DNA of 38,119 nucleotides from contig NZ_ANPE02000100.1 in the NCBI RefSeq assembly GCF_000328305.2, positions 1 through 38,119 on the forward strand. The letters run 5' to 3'. This DNA comes from Arthrobacter crystallopoietes BAB-32. Its GTDB lineage: Bacteria > Actinomycetota > Actinomycetes > Actinomycetales > Micrococcaceae. A model generated the notes under the pieces. The model did not search any database, was not told where the DNA came from, and was given only the letters and a program-made list of their open reading frames with translations. This document shows, piece after piece, positions 5,549 through 17,621 of this stretch. How positions within the stretch are numbered: the first letter of the stretch is position 1; every line of letters starts with the position of its first letter. The translations under genes were made by a program, and so were the position numbers.

Positions 5549-6464
5549 CCCGCTTCGCCAGACGACGCGGCTGTTCCAGCTGCCGCGGGAGCAGCATGCT
5601 GCGGCCCGCAGCTGGCTGGAACACGGCGGCCGGACACCGCTGAAGGCGCGGCTGGCTACCAGCGTGGTGCTGGTTCGCGACGGGCTCGGAGGCACCGAAA
5701 CCTACCTGGGCTACCGCTCCGGCAAGTCGCCGCTGGGAACGATTGCGTTCCCCGGCGGCAGCCTCGACGAGGCCGATTACGAGACTGTGCCGTGGTTCGG
5801 GCCGACGGCGGGCAAGTGGGCCGGCATTCTGGGAGTGGAGGACCACCAGCAGGCCCGTGCCTTCGTGGCCGCCGCCGTCCGCGAGCTCTTCGAGGAGACC
5901 GGCATCCTGCTGGCGGGCCAGGACGAGGCATCGCTCGTCGAAGGCGGCAACAGTGAAGAGTGGATGCGGGCGCGGCAGCTGGTGGCCGAACAGGAAAGCA
6001 GCTTCCCCGAGCTGCTGGAGCGATGGGGGCTGGGGCTGCGCACCGATCTGCTGCGCCCGCTGTCCCGGTGGATCAGCCCCGACTTCGCGCACCGCAGGTT
6101 CGATACGCGCTACTTCGCCGCCACGCAGCCGGTCAACCAGCAGCCTGTCCTGCTGGAGGGCAAAGGCGTGTGGGGCTCCTGGGTCAGCGCGGCAAGGGTC
6201 ATCGCGGAACGGGATACCAGTAGCTTGGGCGACAGCGCGGACCAGGAGGACACGCGGGGCCGGAACCTGAGCGAAGTCACGTCGCCGGCGGTGGAAACCG
6301 TGCTCGAGAAAATTGCTACGGCGCGCGGCTGCGTCGCTTACCTGTCGCACAAGCGGCAAATGCGGACGTACCAGCCTCAGCTCGTGGTCGAGGACGGTAC
6401 GCCAATGCTGCTCGTGCCCACCGCTGCCGGCACGGAGGGCGGTTCAGTCCAGCGCGGCCGGTAG
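5532..6464 (+). CDS. NUDIX hydrolase with split Nudix box (NUDT19/CoA-type)
   Basis: The 310-residue protein has a Nudix motif interrupted by an insertion. AFPGG is followed after about 40 residues by AAVRELFEETGILL, so the metal-binding REXXEE part is intact. This layout resembles the NUDT7/NUDT19 branch, members of which hydrolyse CoA or other nucleoside diphosphate conjugates; the substrate here is open. The TTG at 5532 is chosen because GAGGTGG sits about 8 nt upstream and conserved sequence starts early. It makes the gene overlap ridA by 17 bp, which suggests translational coupling in a DUF4177-ridA-nudix operon. No other good start is visible before the domain. Confidence 0.85.
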   Translation: MQSSASPLRQTTRLFQLPREQHAAARSWLEHGGRTPLKARLATSVVLVRDGLGGTETYLGYRSGKSPLGTIAFPGGSLDEADYETVPWFGPTAGKWAGILGVEDHQQARAFVAAAVRELFEETGILLAGQDEASLVEGGNSEEWMRARQLVAEQESSFPELLERWGLGLRTDLLRPLSRWISPDFAHRRFDTRYFAATQPVNQQPVLLEGKGVWGSWVSAARVIAERDTSSLGDSADQEDTRGRNLSEVTSPAVETVLEKIATARGCVAYLSHKRQMRTYQPQLVVEDGTPMLLVPTAAGTEGGSVQRGR

Positions 6465-12397: not shown

Positions 12398-13918
12398 TCA
12401 GTGGCGCGTGAGCTCCTCCGGGCCTTCCACCGGAACTTCCTCCGTCACGCGGCCGGCCACACGCTGGTCCCAGGCCGCCCGGACATCGGGATCCGTGGGC
12501 CGGGTGGCAAGCGAGACCACGATGTAGCTCAGCAGGGATGCAGCAAGGCCGTAGTAGATGGGCTCGTTGGCGTAGATCCCGGCGTACTGCTCCTCCGCAT
12601 TGATCTCCAGGACGATCATGGTGGTCAGCGTGACAACGCTGCCGACCGCCATCGAAACCGCGGCGCCCATGCCGGTGCCGCGCTTCCAGACCAGGCCGCC
12701 GAGGATCGCGATCAGCAGCCCGCCGACCAGGATGTCGTAGGCGATGGTCAGTGCGGCGACGACGTCCTGCACCATGATGGCCAGCACGATGGACACGGCC
12801 CCGAGCCCGAAGACCCACCAGCGGTTGCCGGCGACGTCATGCTCGGCATGGTCGTGGTCGTAGTGGACGGTCTTGCCGAACCAGGACGCGACGAACGGCA
12901 CCACATCAGCTTTCGCCACGGTGGCCGCAGCGATCAGGGTGCCGGAGGCGGTGGACATCATGGCGGCAACGGCCGCGGCCAGCACCACGCCGCCGATGCC
13001 GATCGGCAGCAGGTTCATGGCGACGTCGGCGTAGACATCGTCCGCTACCTCGATTTCGGGAATAACGACGGCGGCAGCCATGCCGATCAGTGCGCCGGCG
13101 GCACCGTAGAGGATGCAGTAGATTCCGGCCGTCGCCCCGCCCCACCGGGCGACCCCGGGCGTGAGGGCGGTAAACACGCGCTGCCAGATGTCCTGTCCGA
13201 TCAGCAGGCCCAGCATGTAGACCACGAAGTAGGTGATGATGGTCTGGACGCCGATGCCCGTGATGGAGAAGAACTCGGCGTCCACGCGGCCGCGAATGCC
13301 CTCCAGCCCGCCGGCCGAAGACCAGGTCAGCGGCAGCATCAGGAAGAAGACACCGATGGTCTTGATGACGAACTGGGCCATGTCGGCGAGGGTGATGGAC
13401 CACATGCCGCCCACGGTGGAGTAGATGAGGACAATGGCGCCGCCGACCAGGATGGCCAGCCAGCGCTCCCAGCCGAACAGCACCACCATGATGGTGGCGT
13501 AGGCCCCGGTGGAAGTGGCACAGAGCATGAGGGTGTACGCGAGCATGACGATGCCCGAGAATCTCGTGGCATGCACTCCATAGCGCAGTGTCAGCATCTG
13601 GGCCACGGTGTAGATTTTCAGCTTCTGCAGCGTCGGTGCGAAGAGCAGGCTCAGCACGAGCACGCCGGCGCCGATGGCAACAACGAGCCACATGCCAGAA
13701 ATGCCGTACTGGTAGCCGAGGCCGACGCCGCCGACCGTGGAGGCGCCGCCGAGGACGACGGCGGCCATGGTTCCGGTGTAGAGCATTGGGCCAAGCCGTC
13801 GCCCGGCGACCAGGAAATCGCTGGTGTTCTTGGTGCGGGACTTGCCCCACCAGCCGAAGAGCAGCATGGCGGCCAGATAGGCCACGACGATAACGATGTT
13901 GATGACTTGACTGTTCAT
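12398..13918 (-). CDS. Sodium:solute symporter (SSS family), probable guanidino-compound uptake
   Basis: The 506-residue membrane protein has the SSS layout of about 13 helices. It starts with a helix followed by GKSRTKNTSDFLVAGRRLGP, the family's first-loop signature, and has GGASTVGGVGLGYQYG in the next segment. Such carriers import a solute with Na+. Its promoter carries the same operator as the ureohydrolase promoter, with identical spacing, so the solute is probably a guanidino compound or amino acid used by that pathway; this is inference. The ATG at 13918 follows GGAG by 7 nt. The C-terminus is short and charged. Confidence 0.9.
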   Translation of the reverse strand: MNSQVINIVIVVAYLAAMLLFGWWGKSRTKNTSDFLVAGRRLGPMLYTGTMAAVVLGGASTVGGVGLGYQYGISGMWLVVAIGAGVLVLSLLFAPTLQKLKIYTVAQMLTLRYGVHATRFSGIVMLAYTLMLCATSTGAYATIMVVLFGWERWLAILVGGAIVLIYSTVGGMWSITLADMAQFVIKTIGVFFLMLPLTWSSAGGLEGIRGRVDAEFFSITGIGVQTIITYFVVYMLGLLIGQDIWQRVFTALTPGVARWGGATAGIYCILYGAAGALIGMAAAVVIPEIEVADDVYADVAMNLLPIGIGGVVLAAAVAAMMSTASGTLIAAATVAKADVVPFVASWFGKTVHYDHDHAEHDVAGNRWWVFGLGAVSIVLAIMVQDVVAALTIAYDILVGGLLIAILGGLVWKRGTGMGAAVSMAVGSVVTLTTMIVLEINAEEQYAGIYANEPIYYGLAASLLSYIVVSLATRPTDPDVRAAWDQRVAGRVTEEVPVEGPEELTRH

Positions 13919-13965
13919 GAGGGAACTCCGGGAGAGGGGAGCGGCGGTAGAACCCGCCCGTGCTT

Positions 13966-13988
13966 TTGCCTATCAGGCAACAAGTGTT
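13966..13988 (-). promoter_or_regulatory. Operator of the symporter gene, shared with the ureohydrolase operon
   Basis: On the minus strand AACACTTG is followed by one T and then the palindrome TGCCT-GAT-AGGCA (with A after it). The block begins 15 nt... that is, the palindrome begins 15 nt after the -10 box. The block at 14786-14808 upstream of the ureohydrolase matches at 20 of 23 positions. The adjacent XRE-cupin regulator is the obvious candidate to bind it. Confidence 0.7.
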
Positions 13989-13995
13989 GATTGAT

Positions 13996-14025
13996 AGGCT
14001 AATTGTGGCGGGCCTCACCCGTCAA
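13996..14025 (-). promoter_or_regulatory. Promoter of the symporter gene
   Basis: On the minus strand TTGACG (14025-14020) and TAGCCT (14001-13996) are separated by 18 nt. The predicted start lies a few bases before the shared operator, so a bound regulator would block early transcription. Confidence 0.6.
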
Positions 14026-14116
14026 CTGTCCCACTCCGGCGGGCGGCTCTTGCGGGGTGAAGATGCCTCCCTGGCGTGCGTCGAAGCCTGCGCGATGGTT
14101 AAGTGCTAGGGAACTG

Positions 14117-14713
14117 ATGTTGCGAAAGAGGACAACTTTGAAAGCACTGCCCGTTGAGCCCAGCAATGCTCCCATTGCCATCGGTTCGCGCATCCGCGCC
14201 GCCAGGCAGGGGCAGCGGATGACAATCGAGCAGGTCGCGGATTCCACCGGCCTCACCAAGGGCTTCCTGAGCCGGGTGGAGCGGGACCTGACCTCGCCGT
14301 CGGTCGCTTCGCTCGTGACGCTATGCCAGGTGCTGGGGATCTCCATCGGCGATTTGTTCACCATGCCCGAAACCCACCTGTCCCGGAAGGGCGAAGGCCC
14401 GCGGGTCAGCCTGGGGGGCGAGGGCATCAAGGAGGAATTGCTCACTGCGCGGCACGAACACCGCCTGCAGATTATCCGCGCCGTCATCGAACCGCACGGG
14501 CGCGGCGAAAGCGAACTGTACTCGGTGGACTGCGACGTCGATGTGCTGCAGGTGCTCTCCGGCCGGATCACCCTCATCTTCACCACGGAGCGCTACGTAC
14601 TGGAGGCTGGTGACACGATTTCCTTCCCCGGACGCGAACCGCACACGTGGGTCAATGACAATGATGAACCGGCCGTGGTGACCTGGACTTTGGTGCCCGC
14701 CGCATCCCGCTGA
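14117..14713 (+). CDS. XRE-family regulator with C-terminal cupin sensor domain
   Basis: The 198-residue protein has an HTH_3 domain at about residues 22-80 (IGSRIRAARQGQRMTIEQVA, then LTKGFLSRVERDLTSPS) and a cupin_2 domain at about 120-192 ending FPGREPHTWV. This PuuR-like class controls catabolic genes, often for polyamines or amino acids, and senses a small molecule in the cupin. It lies between the symporter and the ureohydrolase genes, whose promoters share an operator; it is the likely regulator. ATG 14117 has AGGGA 4 nt upstream; TTG 14138 after GAGGACAAC is an alternative start. Confidence 0.88.
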   Translation: MLRKRTTLKALPVEPSNAPIAIGSRIRAARQGQRMTIEQVADSTGLTKGFLSRVERDLTSPSVASLVTLCQVLGISIGDLFTMPETHLSRKGEGPRVSLGGEGIKEELLTARHEHRLQIIRAVIEPHGRGESELYSVDCDVDVLQVLSGRITLIFTTERYVLEAGDTISFPGREPHTWVNDNDEPAVVTWTLVPAASR

Positions 14714-14749
14714 TTCAGCTTCCCGGTGCCCCTCGAGTGGGCGGGCCCC

Positions 14750-14778
14750 TTGACTGAGGGCGCGGTCACAATTAGCGT
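14750..14778 (+). promoter_or_regulatory. Promoter of the ureohydrolase-ThDP operon
   Basis: TTGACT (14750-14755) and TAGCGT (14773-14778) are separated by 17 nt. The predicted start is near 14785, directly before the operator block. Confidence 0.65.
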
Positions 14779-14785
14779 ATTTCAA

Positions 14786-14808
14786 AACACTTGATGCCTA
14801 TTAGGCAA
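14786..14808 (+). promoter_or_regulatory. Operator of the ureohydrolase operon
   Basis: AACACTTG, one A, then the palindrome TGCCT-ATT-AGGCA. The palindrome begins 15 nt after the -10 box, exactly as at the symporter promoter. It ends 7 nt before the AGGAGG ribosome binding site of the ureohydrolase. Confidence 0.7.
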
Positions 14809-14826
14809 CTTTTCCAGGAGGCCCCG

Positions 14827-15951
14827 GTGGAAGAAATCCGCATCGAAAACAATGGCAGGCTCGGCCCGATCGACTCGTCGCGCATCCCCCGCTTCTCCGG
14901 AGCGGCGACGTTCGCCCGCCTGCCGCGGCTGGACCAGGTGGGCCGGGCCGACGTGGCGGTCGTCGGTGTTCCTTTTGACGCCGGTGTGTCCTACCGTCCG
15001 GGCGCCCGCTTCGGCTCCAACCACATCCGCGAGGCTTCACGGCTGCTGCGTCCCTACAACCCGGCCTGGGACGTCAGCCCGTTCGAAGAGCTGCAGGTGG
15101 CGGACGCCGGAGACATGGCGGTCAACCCGTTCCACATCAACGAGGCCATCGAGACGATCCAGCAGAACGCGCTGGACCTGACCGCCGATGGCACCCGCCT
15201 GGTCACCCTCGGCGGCGACCACACCATTGCGCTGCCCCTGCTGCGTGCCGCCGCCGAGCGGGCCGGCCAACCGGTCGCGATGCTGCATTTCGACGCGCAC
15301 CTGGACACTTGGGACACCTACTTCGGTGCCGAGTACACGCACGGCACACCGTTCCGCCGCGCAGTGGAAGAGGGCATCCTCGACACCGAAGCGATCAGCC
15401 ATGTGGGAACGCGCGGCCCGCTCTACGGCAAGAAGGACCTGGACGACGACCGCCGCTTCGGCTTCGGCATCGTGACCAGCTCCGACGTCTACTATCAGGG
15501 CGTGGCCGAAATCGTGGCGAAGCTGCGGGACCGGATCGGGAACCGCCCGCTCTATATCTCGGTGGACATTGACGTGCTCGACCCGGCCCACGCGCCCGGC
15601 ACCGGCACGCCGGAAGCCGGCGGCATGACCAGCCGCGAGCTGCTCGAAATCATCCGGGGCTTCCGCGGCATGAACCTCATCGGCGCGGACGTCGTGGAAG
15701 TAGCGCCTGCCTATGACCACGCGGAAATCACCGGCGTCGCCGCCAGCCACGTGGCCTACGACCTCGTCACGCTGCTCGCCGCCAATGCCGCGGACACCGC
15801 GGAGGGTGCGCGCGCGGCGGAAGCCGGCGGAGAGTACGACGGCGGCGCACCGGTAGGTGCGGGCGTCTCGCCCCAGGTGCCGGCCGGGTCGCGCAAGCTG
15901 CACGGGGACCCGGTGGCGGAAAGCGCGCTGGGCGCCCGGGAAGGACGCTGA
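14827..15951 (+). CDS. Agmatinase-family ureohydrolase, probable guanidinobutyrase
   Basis: The 374-residue enzyme has all binuclear-manganese motifs of the arginase/agmatinase family: GGDH (129-132), DAHLD (156-160) and [19 protein letters not shown] (245-263). It splits urea from a guanidino substrate in the cytosol. Annotation transfer would call it agmatinase. The ThDP decarboxylase 2 bp downstream suggests instead 4-guanidinobutyrate to GABA plus urea (GbuA-type) in the arginine transaminase route; this is inference. A 55-residue Ala/Gly-rich C-terminal tail (from about 320) is unusual. The GTG at 14827 is chosen for its AGGAGG site 5 nt upstream. An earlier in-frame TTG at 14791 lies inside the operator. 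Confidence 0.87.
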
Positions 15952-15953
15952 GC

Positions 15954-17621
15954 ATGGAGCAGCTGAACGGTGGCGGGACCCGCAACGGCGGCGACCTCGT
16001 CGTCGAAACCCTGAACGCGCTGGGCGCGACCACGGTCTTCGGCATTCCCGGCCAGCACGCCCTGGGCCTGTTCGACGCGCTCTCGCGCTCGAAGCTGCAG
16101 TTCATCTCCTCCCGGGTGGAGAACAACTCGGCCTTCGCCGCGGACGGGTTCTCCCGCGCCACCGGCGAAGTGGGCGTGCTGTTCCTGTCCACCGGCCCGG
16201 GCGCGCTCACGTCGCTGGCGGGACTGCAGGAGGCCTATGCCACCGGCGTGCCGATGGTGGTGGTCGCCAGCCAGATCCCATTGGAGGGCCTCGGCGCGCG
16301 GCGGAAGGGCATGCTGCACCAGCTCGACGACCAGAAGGCCTCGGCCGCCAACGTGACGAAGAGCCAGCGGCTGATCCAGCACGCCTCCGGCATCCCCTCG
16401 GCCATCCAGGACGCTTGGACCGAGGCCATTTCCTCGCCGCAGGGGCCGGTCTGGGTCGAGATACCGCAGAACGTACTGCTCGATCCCATTGTGGTCCCGC
16501 CGGTGGAAGACGCGCTTGCGGAGGCGTTCGACAACCCGCCGCGGACCGAGCTGGTCAAGGAGGCGGTGAAGTGGCTCGCTGCAGCGCAGCGCCCGGCGAT
16601 CATTGCCGGCGGCGGTGTCCGCCGCGGCAAGGCTGAACCATGGCTGCAGTCGATCGCGGAAAAGCTCCGGGCACCGGTGGTTTGCTCGCCCGGCGGCAAT
16701 GGCGCCTTCCCTTGGCTGCACGAGCTGTCGCTGCAGTCCTGGGTGGAGGACCGGTACGTGACCGAGGTGCTCGAGGACGCCGACGTGCTGCTCGTGGTCG
16801 GTTCTTCGCTGGGCGAGGTGACCAGCAACTACTTCACGCTGGAGCCGCGCGGCCGCATCATCCAGGTGGACGCGGAACCGCGGGTGCTCGAGTCCAACCG
16901 GCCGGCCCTGGGGATCCGTGCCGACGCAGGCCAGGCGCTGGAAGCGTTGGATGCTGCGTTGGAAGCCGGCGCCACCAGCCCGGACTGGCACGGAAAGACG
17001 CCGGAGCAGCTGGTGAAGGAGACGCTTACCAAGGTGCAGGAGCGCCTTGACAGCCAGGACCTGGCGAAAGAACGGGCGTTCATGGCGGACATCCGCGCGG
17101 CGGTGCCGGACACCATGCAGACCTTCTGGGACATGACCATCTCGGCCTACTGGGCCTGGAGCTGCTGGGATTCGCGCGAAGGCCAGTTCCACTCGGCCCA
17201 AGGCGCCGGCGGCCTCGGCTTCGGCTTCCCCGGCGCGATCGGCGGTGCCGTCGGTCTCGCGTCCGCGGGCCTGCCCGCACGCGTGCTTGCCGTCTCCGGC
17301 GATGGCTCGGCCATGTACTCGATCAGCGAGCTGGCCACCGTGCGCCAGCACAACCTGCCGGTCACCTGGCTCATTGTCGACGACGGCGGGTACGGCATCC
17401 TGCGCGAGTACATGGAGGGGGCGTTCGGCCAAGCGACCGCCACCGAGCTGGCCAGGCCGGATTTCGTCAAGCTGGCCGAATCCTTCGGGGTGCCGGCCCG
17501 CCGGGTGCGGCCCGAAGACGTCCGGGAGGCGCTCGCGGAAAGCCTTGCAGCGGAAGGCCCGAACGTCGTCGTTGTTGAGACCCGGCTGAAGATGTTCGCA
17601 CCGACGCACCTGGCCACCTGA
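15954..17621 (+). CDS. Thiamine-diphosphate-dependent decarboxylase, probable 2-ketoarginine decarboxylase (AruI-like)
   Basis: The 555-residue enzyme has the three-domain ThDP fold. The cofactor-activating Glu is E56 in RVENNSAFAADGFSR, a central domain follows, and the ThDP/Mg motif starts GDGS (449-452). The length is close to Pseudomonas AruI, which decarboxylates 5-guanidino-2-oxopentanoate to 4-guanidinobutyraldehyde. Together with the ureohydrolase encoded 2 bp upstream this supplies two non-adjacent steps of that pathway. The aminotransferase and aldehyde dehydrogenase are not in the window. The Mg motif ends VDDGGYG rather than the usual NN; Asp can still bind Mg, so activity is not excluded. 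Benzoylformate- or acetolactate-type activity remains possible. Confidence 0.85.
   Translation: MEQLNGGGTRNGGDLVVETLNALGATTVFGIPGQHALGLFDALSRSKLQFISSRVENNSAFAADGFSRATGEVGVLFLSTGPGALTSLAGLQEAYATGVPMVVVASQIPLEGLGARRKGMLHQLDDQKASAANVTKSQRLIQHASGIPSAIQDAWTEAISSPQGPVWVEIPQNVLLDPIVVPPVEDALAEAFDNPPRTELVKEAVKWLAAAQRPAIIAGGGVRRGKAEPWLQSIAEKLRAPVVCSPGGNGAFPWLHELSLQSWVEDRYVTEVLEDADVLLVVGSSLGEVTSNYFTLEPRGRIIQVDAEPRVLESNRPALGIRADAGQALEALDAALEAGATSPDWHGKTPEQLVKETLTKVQERLDSQDLAKERAFMADIRAAVPDTMQTFWDMTISAYWAWSCWDSREGQFHSAQGAGGLGFGFPGAIGGAVGLASAGLPARVLAVSGDGSAMYSISELATVRQHNLPVTWLIVDDGGYGILREYMEGAFGQATATELARPDFVKLAESFGVPARRVRPEDVREALAESLAAEGPNVVVVETRLKMFAPTHLAT

Follow-up and report, generated by a model that had tools for sequence, protein, structure and literature searches.

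Two neighboring promoters of Arthrobacter crystallopoietes BAB-32 carry nearly the same 23-bp block, which raises the question of what regulates them and what else is regulated with them. The promoters lie in the window, meaning the whole 38,119-nucleotide stretch of DNA analysed here (contig NZ_ANPE02000100.1), and they serve a symporter gene and a ureohydrolase gene with an XRE-cupin transcription factor gene between them. The first-pass annotation had proposed a single regulator, most likely the XRE-cupin protein. From the anatomy, conservation and promoter position of the operator, its co-occurrence with the XRE-cupin gene and a third target elsewhere in the genome, all read from DNA, we infer that this protein binds the operator and is probably a repressor that acts locally, senses a ligand and controls a regulon for guanidino-amino-acid catabolism; it would occlude the -10 box and transcription start, be released by its ligand, control an unlinked aminotransferase gene and share these promoters with a probable CRP/GlxR input. 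Such a regulon for breakdown of arginine and guanidino compounds would be testable across the Micrococcaceae.

The sodium:solute symporter (SSS) gene, target 1, is an open reading frame at 12398..13918 on the minus strand (Pfam PF00474, E 9.8e-29). The XRE-cupin gene follows at 14138..14713 on the plus strand (Pfam HTH_3 4.3e-11, Cupin_2 3.1e-11); its product has HTH_3 at residues 19-73 and Cupin_2 at residues 136-183, both above curated cut-offs. The TTG start of this gene was assumed because ATG, GTG or TTG stands there in most relatives. The HTH is nearly invariant among 19 close sequences, and an AlphaFold model (19 close sequences) has a mean pLDDT of 61.7. Near-full-length similarity to PuuR, the XRE-cupin repressor of putrescine catabolism, gave the best NCBIfam match (equivalog NF007408), scoring 57.9 bits, below the cut-off of 211; PuuR serves another pathway than the Arthrobacter protein. 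Target 2, the ureohydrolase gene (URE), lies at 14827..15951 on the plus strand (Pfam Arginase 2.2e-96). Its closest solved chain is the guanidinobutyrase 3nio (E 7e-83), and it passes the NCBIfam agmatinase cut-offs (TIGR01230, 221.4 vs. 174.3; PRK02190, 314.8 vs. 302); we describe it as a predicted guanidinobutyrase-like enzyme, with 4-guanidinobutyrate as the presumed substrate. A gene for a thiamine-pyrophosphate 2-ketoacid decarboxylase-like (TPP) enzyme, presumed to be co-operonic with the ureohydrolase gene, follows at 15954..17621 on the plus strand; it scores 318.6 bits, below the cut-off of 500, for its second-best family (NF005712, 5-guanidino-2-oxopentanoate decarboxylase, AruI). 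The XRE gene has an ortholog in 34 of 59 genomes including this one, and the order symporter-XRE-ureohydrolase-TPP is widespread; named loci with the gene group belong to Arthrobacter, Pseudarthrobacter and Sinomonas, the nearest being that of A. mangrovi.

The 23-bp block was correctly placed by the first-pass annotation, at 13966-13988 on the minus strand before the symporter gene and at 14786-14808 on the plus strand before the ureohydrolase gene, and letter-by-letter comparison of the genome matches gives the 20 of 23 equal positions that it had counted. Its palindrome TGCCT-N3-AGGCA occurs at 13967-13979 and 14795-14807 in the window scan. The palindrome had been said to begin exactly 15 nt after the -10 box in both cases: the equality holds, but each promoter has 16 nt between the hexamer and TGCCT, 15 nt applying only when one extra arm base is counted. 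The symporter promoter has a -35 box TTGACG (14020..14025, minus strand) and, after an 18-nt spacer, a -10 box TAGCCT (13996..14001, minus strand); the ureohydrolase promoter has TTGACT (14750..14755, plus strand), a 17-nt spacer and TAGCGT (14773..14778, plus strand). A generic promoter scan of 13800-14900 called no sigma-70 promoter, because TAGCST is too far from TATAAT; the window promoters were recognised from conservation.

The search of the host genome for TGCCT-N3-AGGCA that had been suggested found four places, about 4.6 being expected from the window base composition, so that the bare palindrome is not rare; the other two (C228 and C271) are, by eye, without the AACACTTG block. A window scan allowing two mismatches was uninformative (20 matches vs. 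20.8 expected). The full 23-mer, at up to three mismatches, occurs only at these two promoter sites in the 4.35-Mb genome. What exceeds chance is thus the whole block together with its promoter placement. The palindrome belongs to the operator without being the whole of it: it is found in the genome at chance frequency, relatives keep another part (h1-h2, below) at least as well as the palindrome, and it corresponds to h2-h3 of a larger operator.

Aligned upstream regions show an operator of half-sites GNMAAC/GTTKNC in the arrangement h1-N4-h2-N5-h3, with a fourth half-site (h0) overlapping the -10 box. In sequence, h0 is TTAGCC, followed after 5 nt by h1 (GNMAAC), after 4 nt (mostly ANNT) by h2 (GTTKNC or GATGCC) and after 5 nt by h3 (GGCAAC), so that half-sites recur every 10 to 11 bp in alternating orientation. 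The 38-bp symporter operator, at 13965..14002 on the minus strand, reads TTAGCC-N5-ATCAAC-N4-GTTGCC-N5-GGCAAA; it contains the 13966-13988 block, and the -10 box lies inside its h0. The 38-bp ureohydrolase operator, at 14772..14809 on the plus strand, reads TTAGCG-N5-CAAAAC-N4-GATGCC-N5-GGCAAC, and is identical to the first at 28 of 38 positions. The symporter operator is a strong dyad (15 of 19 pairs self-complementary, equaled by none of 20,000 shuffles), and the ureohydrolase dyad is weaker (9 of 19 pairs, shuffle p 0.045). Among 50 family sites, which were chosen by a matrix so that letter counts are somewhat circular, 49-50 retain AAC in h1 and 47-49 retain G, T and C in h2; in h3 the last shared A is kept in all 50, and G, C and A in 43.

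Lack of conservation in orthologous promoters had been named as evidence that would count against a shared operator; the operator is instead well conserved. It is found upstream of the symporter gene in all 10 genus genomes, matching the consensus at 28-31 of 31 letters. Other genera were then scanned with a matrix derived from 20 genus sites alone, p being taken against 20,000 random segments: at p<=0.01 the matrix found sites in 12 of 13 SSS, 17 of 23 URE and 16 of 21 XRE upstream regions, the last often being the intergenic region common with the symporter gene. Six of the 23 URE regions of these non-genus loci had no site at that threshold, nor did any of 17 TPP gene starts. In 80 named XRE loci, every scorable upstream region, 66 of SSS and 52 of URE genes, exceeded 99.9% of the null; this set is partly independent, since at least L213-L217 and L221 are genomes already used. 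The pattern AACANNTGWTGCN6GGCAA with up to one mismatch occurs at 32 places in the 10 genus genomes (12 for the reversed control), and without mismatch at 15 places in 61 family genomes (none for the reversed control); of these 15, one is inside an unrelated frame and the other 14 are at regulon genes (symporter, XRE, ureohydrolase or aminotransferase). At two mismatches the host genome itself gave 10 places, against 14 with the reversed pattern. The 10 comprise both window sites, a mirror match of the symporter site and seven others; of three of these seven that were inspected (C184, C178 and C261), only C178, at an aminotransferase gene, recurs in relatives.

This third target, found through the genus-wide pattern search, is the promoter of a PLP aminotransferase gene elsewhere in the genome. 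With a matrix trained without that promoter, 9 of 10 genus genomes have the site at p<=0.01; p is 0.003 in the host genome, and the site is weak (p 0.025) in the remaining genome, G006. Upstream regions were scored for 30 of 47 aminotransferase matches. Outside the genus 8 of 19 regions have the site at p<=0.01 and 11 do not, several of these matches being about 50% identical and perhaps not orthologs. One candidate (L129) was discarded as false, the match beginning at residue 100 and the region being intragenic. A LuxR/GerE-type HTH protein is encoded directly upstream of the aminotransferase gene in the host genome (L073, 510-1478), and similar frames precede it in several genus members.

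The aminotransferase matches Pfam Aminotran_1_2, and its best six NCBIfam matches include the enduracididine enzyme MppQ and the guanitoxin enzyme GntC, both below cut-offs. In the arginine transaminase pathway of Pseudomonas (AruH/AruI/KauB/GbuA), arginine is converted to 2-ketoarginine, guanidinobutyraldehyde, guanidinobutyrate and finally GABA plus urea. The third target fits such a route: an arginine aminotransferase would complete the pathway from arginine to GABA and urea, and the unlinked gene is the likely source of its first enzyme. As in Pseudomonas there would be a guanidinobutyrase-like ureohydrolase, a 2-ketoarginine-decarboxylase-like TPP enzyme and an aminotransferase, here under one operator and with predicted substrates; unlike in Pseudomonas, the TPP enzyme is below its family cut-off and no aldehyde dehydrogenase gene is among the sites examined. 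The regulon had been defined as uptake plus two catabolic enzymes; small it appears to be, with a membership enlarged by the unlinked aminotransferase promoter.

Repression just after the transcription start had been suggested. That geometry holds at the two window promoters and is no general rule, since in many relatives, and at the aminotransferase gene, the operator is upstream of the -10 box. Two classes can be described. A class I promoter reads TTGAC, 17-18 nt, TAnnnT and then the operator after a gap of 2-7 nt, this gap being 4 nt for 69 of 95 non-redundant cases; a class II promoter has the operator first, standing in place of the -35 box, and TAnnnT 6-9 nt after it. These classes were defined after sequence inspection and then applied as a fixed rule, with the forward strand scored, to larger sets and to random placements. 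A strong forward operator is present in 199 upstream regions, which divide into 104 of class I, 85 of class II, 4 that fit both classes and 6 that fit neither; operators placed at random in these regions fell into class I in 0.3% and class II in 4.7% of cases. Symporter promoters (90) are mostly class I: 72, with 1 class II, 4 both, 5 neither and 8 below threshold. Ureohydrolase promoters (105) comprise 32 class I, 66 class II, none both, 1 neither and 6 below threshold, and aminotransferase promoters (30) comprise 18 class II, no class I and 12 below threshold. Among ureohydrolase orthologs the promoter class differs between genera, some having class I and others class II; a quick tree built from 78 loci requires at least three changes, two of them forced by well-supported (starred) branches. 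Since the classes differ between orthologous promoters, it is the operator that is kept rather than its position.

We propose that the GNMAAC/GTTKNC half-sites, which alternate in orientation at intervals of roughly one helical turn, are bound by XRE-cupin dimers; at class I promoters all four half-sites of the operator could be covered by two adjacent dimers. At the symporter gene and the ureohydrolase-decarboxylase operon the window operators cover the -10 box and transcription start, and protein bound there would therefore block RNA polymerase. Repression would thus act by covering -10 and +1 in class I and the -35 region in class II, the latter including the aminotransferase promoter as part of the regulon. 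A pathway compound bound in the cupin domain would release the repressor; our guesses are 2-ketoarginine, 4-guanidinobutyrate and arginine.

The class II operator replaces the -35 box at a near-fixed distance, as would likewise be expected if the bound protein were an activator. The same XRE-cupin protein might then be a dual regulator, repressing class I promoters from its place over -10/+1 and activating class II promoters from about -38 to -41 through sigma region 4, as lambda cI at PRM contacts region 4 of the sigma factor. The near-exclusiveness of the two classes against random placements favors this reading. So does the poverty of class II promoters in other elements: TTGACA matches average 2.8 of 6 (5.0 in class I, 2.3 at random), an extended -10 occurs in 1 of 85, and the h1-h2 dyad centers at -37.5 to -40.5 when the -10 box start is set at -12. 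Yet 13 of the 85 match TTGACA at 4 or 5 of 6 positions, and covering the -35 region fits repression too. The same gene is class I or class II depending on genus, so that activation would require opposite regulation of orthologs or a ligand effect besides release. Excerpts from PMC7901475 describe the P. aeruginosa XRE-cupin proteins with determined regulons as all being inhibitors. On balance we consider dual regulation unlikely. Its evolutionary extension, a portable half-site array with two interchangeable modes (class I repressor, class II sigma-contacting activator) in which orthologous promoters switched mode during family evolution, is offered as a tentative and rather doubtful idea. Repression throughout, our preferred reading, can be set against activation experimentally, since one conserved operator can lie on the -10 or on the -35 side of a promoter and paired orthologous promoters supply the comparison.

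Assignment of the operator to the XRE-cupin protein is supported as likely by co-occurrence. Among 149 family genomes including the host, the ureohydrolase has a match (E<=1e-100) in 132 and XRE a match (E<=1e-30, which would miss a too-diverged regulator) in 112, none of these being among the 17 genomes without a ureohydrolase match. With a masked null, the URE upstream site at p<=0.01 was found in 20 of 20 further XRE-bearing genomes, hand-chosen over many genera, and in 1 of 20 that have the ureohydrolase and no XRE match (G171); the XRE-less genomes are clustered in few genera and many have diverged ureohydrolases, so this comparison is not independent of descent. Ureohydrolases as close as 78-84% identity do occur in the XRE-less set, namely in genus g13 and genome G105. 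An unmasked null contained real sites and inflated p, so that only 10 (family matrix) or 4 (genus matrix) of the 20 XRE-bearing genomes reached p<=0.01. Ureohydrolase paralogues, present as second copies in the genus, had the upstream site in 0 of 7 cases at p<=0.01 with the masked null.

A regulator encoded elsewhere might bind the operator, the XRE-cupin gene being a mere neighbor, and the lack of linkage between the third target and that gene would agree with this. We think it improbable, because the site tracks the XRE-cupin gene across the family as just described, and because at the 12.5-kb locus L065, where no adjacent symporter was detected, the sole strong operator (at 5940) is just upstream of the XRE-cupin gene, a position that hints at autoregulation. 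More improbable still is that the two window sites are alike through recent promoter copying without functional constraint. In its favor, the two operators agree at 28 of 38 positions, most symporter promoters have the class I form, and the tree is compatible with a return of the genus to class I at the ureohydrolase gene; a copy event could still be the origin of the likeness. Half-sites are conserved across genera, however, and the operator is kept in both promoter classes. Lastly, the window block is downstream of -10, hence transcribed, and TGCCT-N3-AGGCA could make a short stem, but an mRNA-leader hairpin (riboswitch or attenuator) in place of a DNA operator is rejected as scarcely credible, since the class II element is upstream of, and untranscribed from, its -10, a search of 13900-14900 against Rfam yields nothing at E<=1, and h1 is conserved although it is no part of the stem.

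Both core promoters contain a second element, absent from the earlier account of the locus: a CRP/GlxR-like box, GGTGAGGCCCGCCACA between -35 and -10 of the symporter promoter (14004..14019, minus strand) and TGAGGGCGCGGTCACA likewise between -35 and -10 of the ureohydrolase promoter (14755..14770, plus strand), each agreeing at 8 of 10 positions with TGTGA-N6-TCACA, given as the GlxR consensus in excerpts from PMC7999487. The window boxes recur at matching places in most relatives. Counting boxes of at least 8/10 at their fixed promoter position, 151 of 182 non-redundant promoters have one, and overlapping control windows give 16 of 621; when all 350 nt of control upstream regions are considered, 9 of 27 have a box. 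Class I promoters mostly have it between -35 and -10, class II ureohydrolase promoters over -10, and aminotransferase promoters just after -10. A CRP-type protein is encoded in the host genome, and its best-matching solved structures are those of actinobacterial CRP/FNR-family regulators. Through this core-promoter box the regulon probably receives a second, global input from a CRP/GlxR-like protein; if that protein binds there, the pathway would be tied to global carbon control.

Controller (C) proteins are small HTH proteins recognising paired half-sites and are not known to have a cupin domain; unlike XRE-cupin proteins they serve a restriction-modification timing circuit, with no metabolic ligand. 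Excerpts from PMC3695507 describe dimers of one of them, C.PvuII, binding cooperatively at two sites, one over a -35 box, with both activation and repression resulting; by this description the arrangement resembles the multi-half-site Arthrobacter operator. There is also a likeness to P. aeruginosa XRE-cupin proteins. In excerpts from PMC7901475, those with determined regulons bind beside their own gene and mostly at core promoters, and inhibit; PauR, PsdR, ErfA and PA0535 are described as having HTH and cupin domains and a palindromic core-promoter site near their own gene, and most such proteins have one or two targets and a role in amine or amino-acid catabolism. The Arthrobacter protein likewise has HTH_3 and cupin domains and a palindromic core-promoter operator beside its own gene. 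It differs in belonging to Actinobacteria and in an operator of three to four half-sites, up to 38 bp, at two fixed positions; PauR, with 29 target genes in the same excerpts, has no small local regulon. The portions consulted of open-licence papers on XRE-cupin proteins, guanidinobutyrase and Arthrobacter contain no account of this guanidino regulon. An enzyme of the same genus, the Zn2+-guanidinobutyrase/D-arginase of Arthrobacter sp. KUJ 8602 (as cited in PMC11271267), is reported to have 4-guanidinobutyrate ureohydrolase activity; its likeness to the window ureohydrolase is by reported activity and genus.

Two further loci can be mentioned. A contig labelled Vibrio cholerae strain 35D (L271, WNZI01000046.1) bears an Arthrobacter-type locus, probably through contamination or mislabelling of the assembly. 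In one genus member (L070, G003:C2:673333-685650) the symporter gene is present twice, the additional copy having an operator of its own, and there is a partial XRE copy (matching residues 1-107, with a stop).
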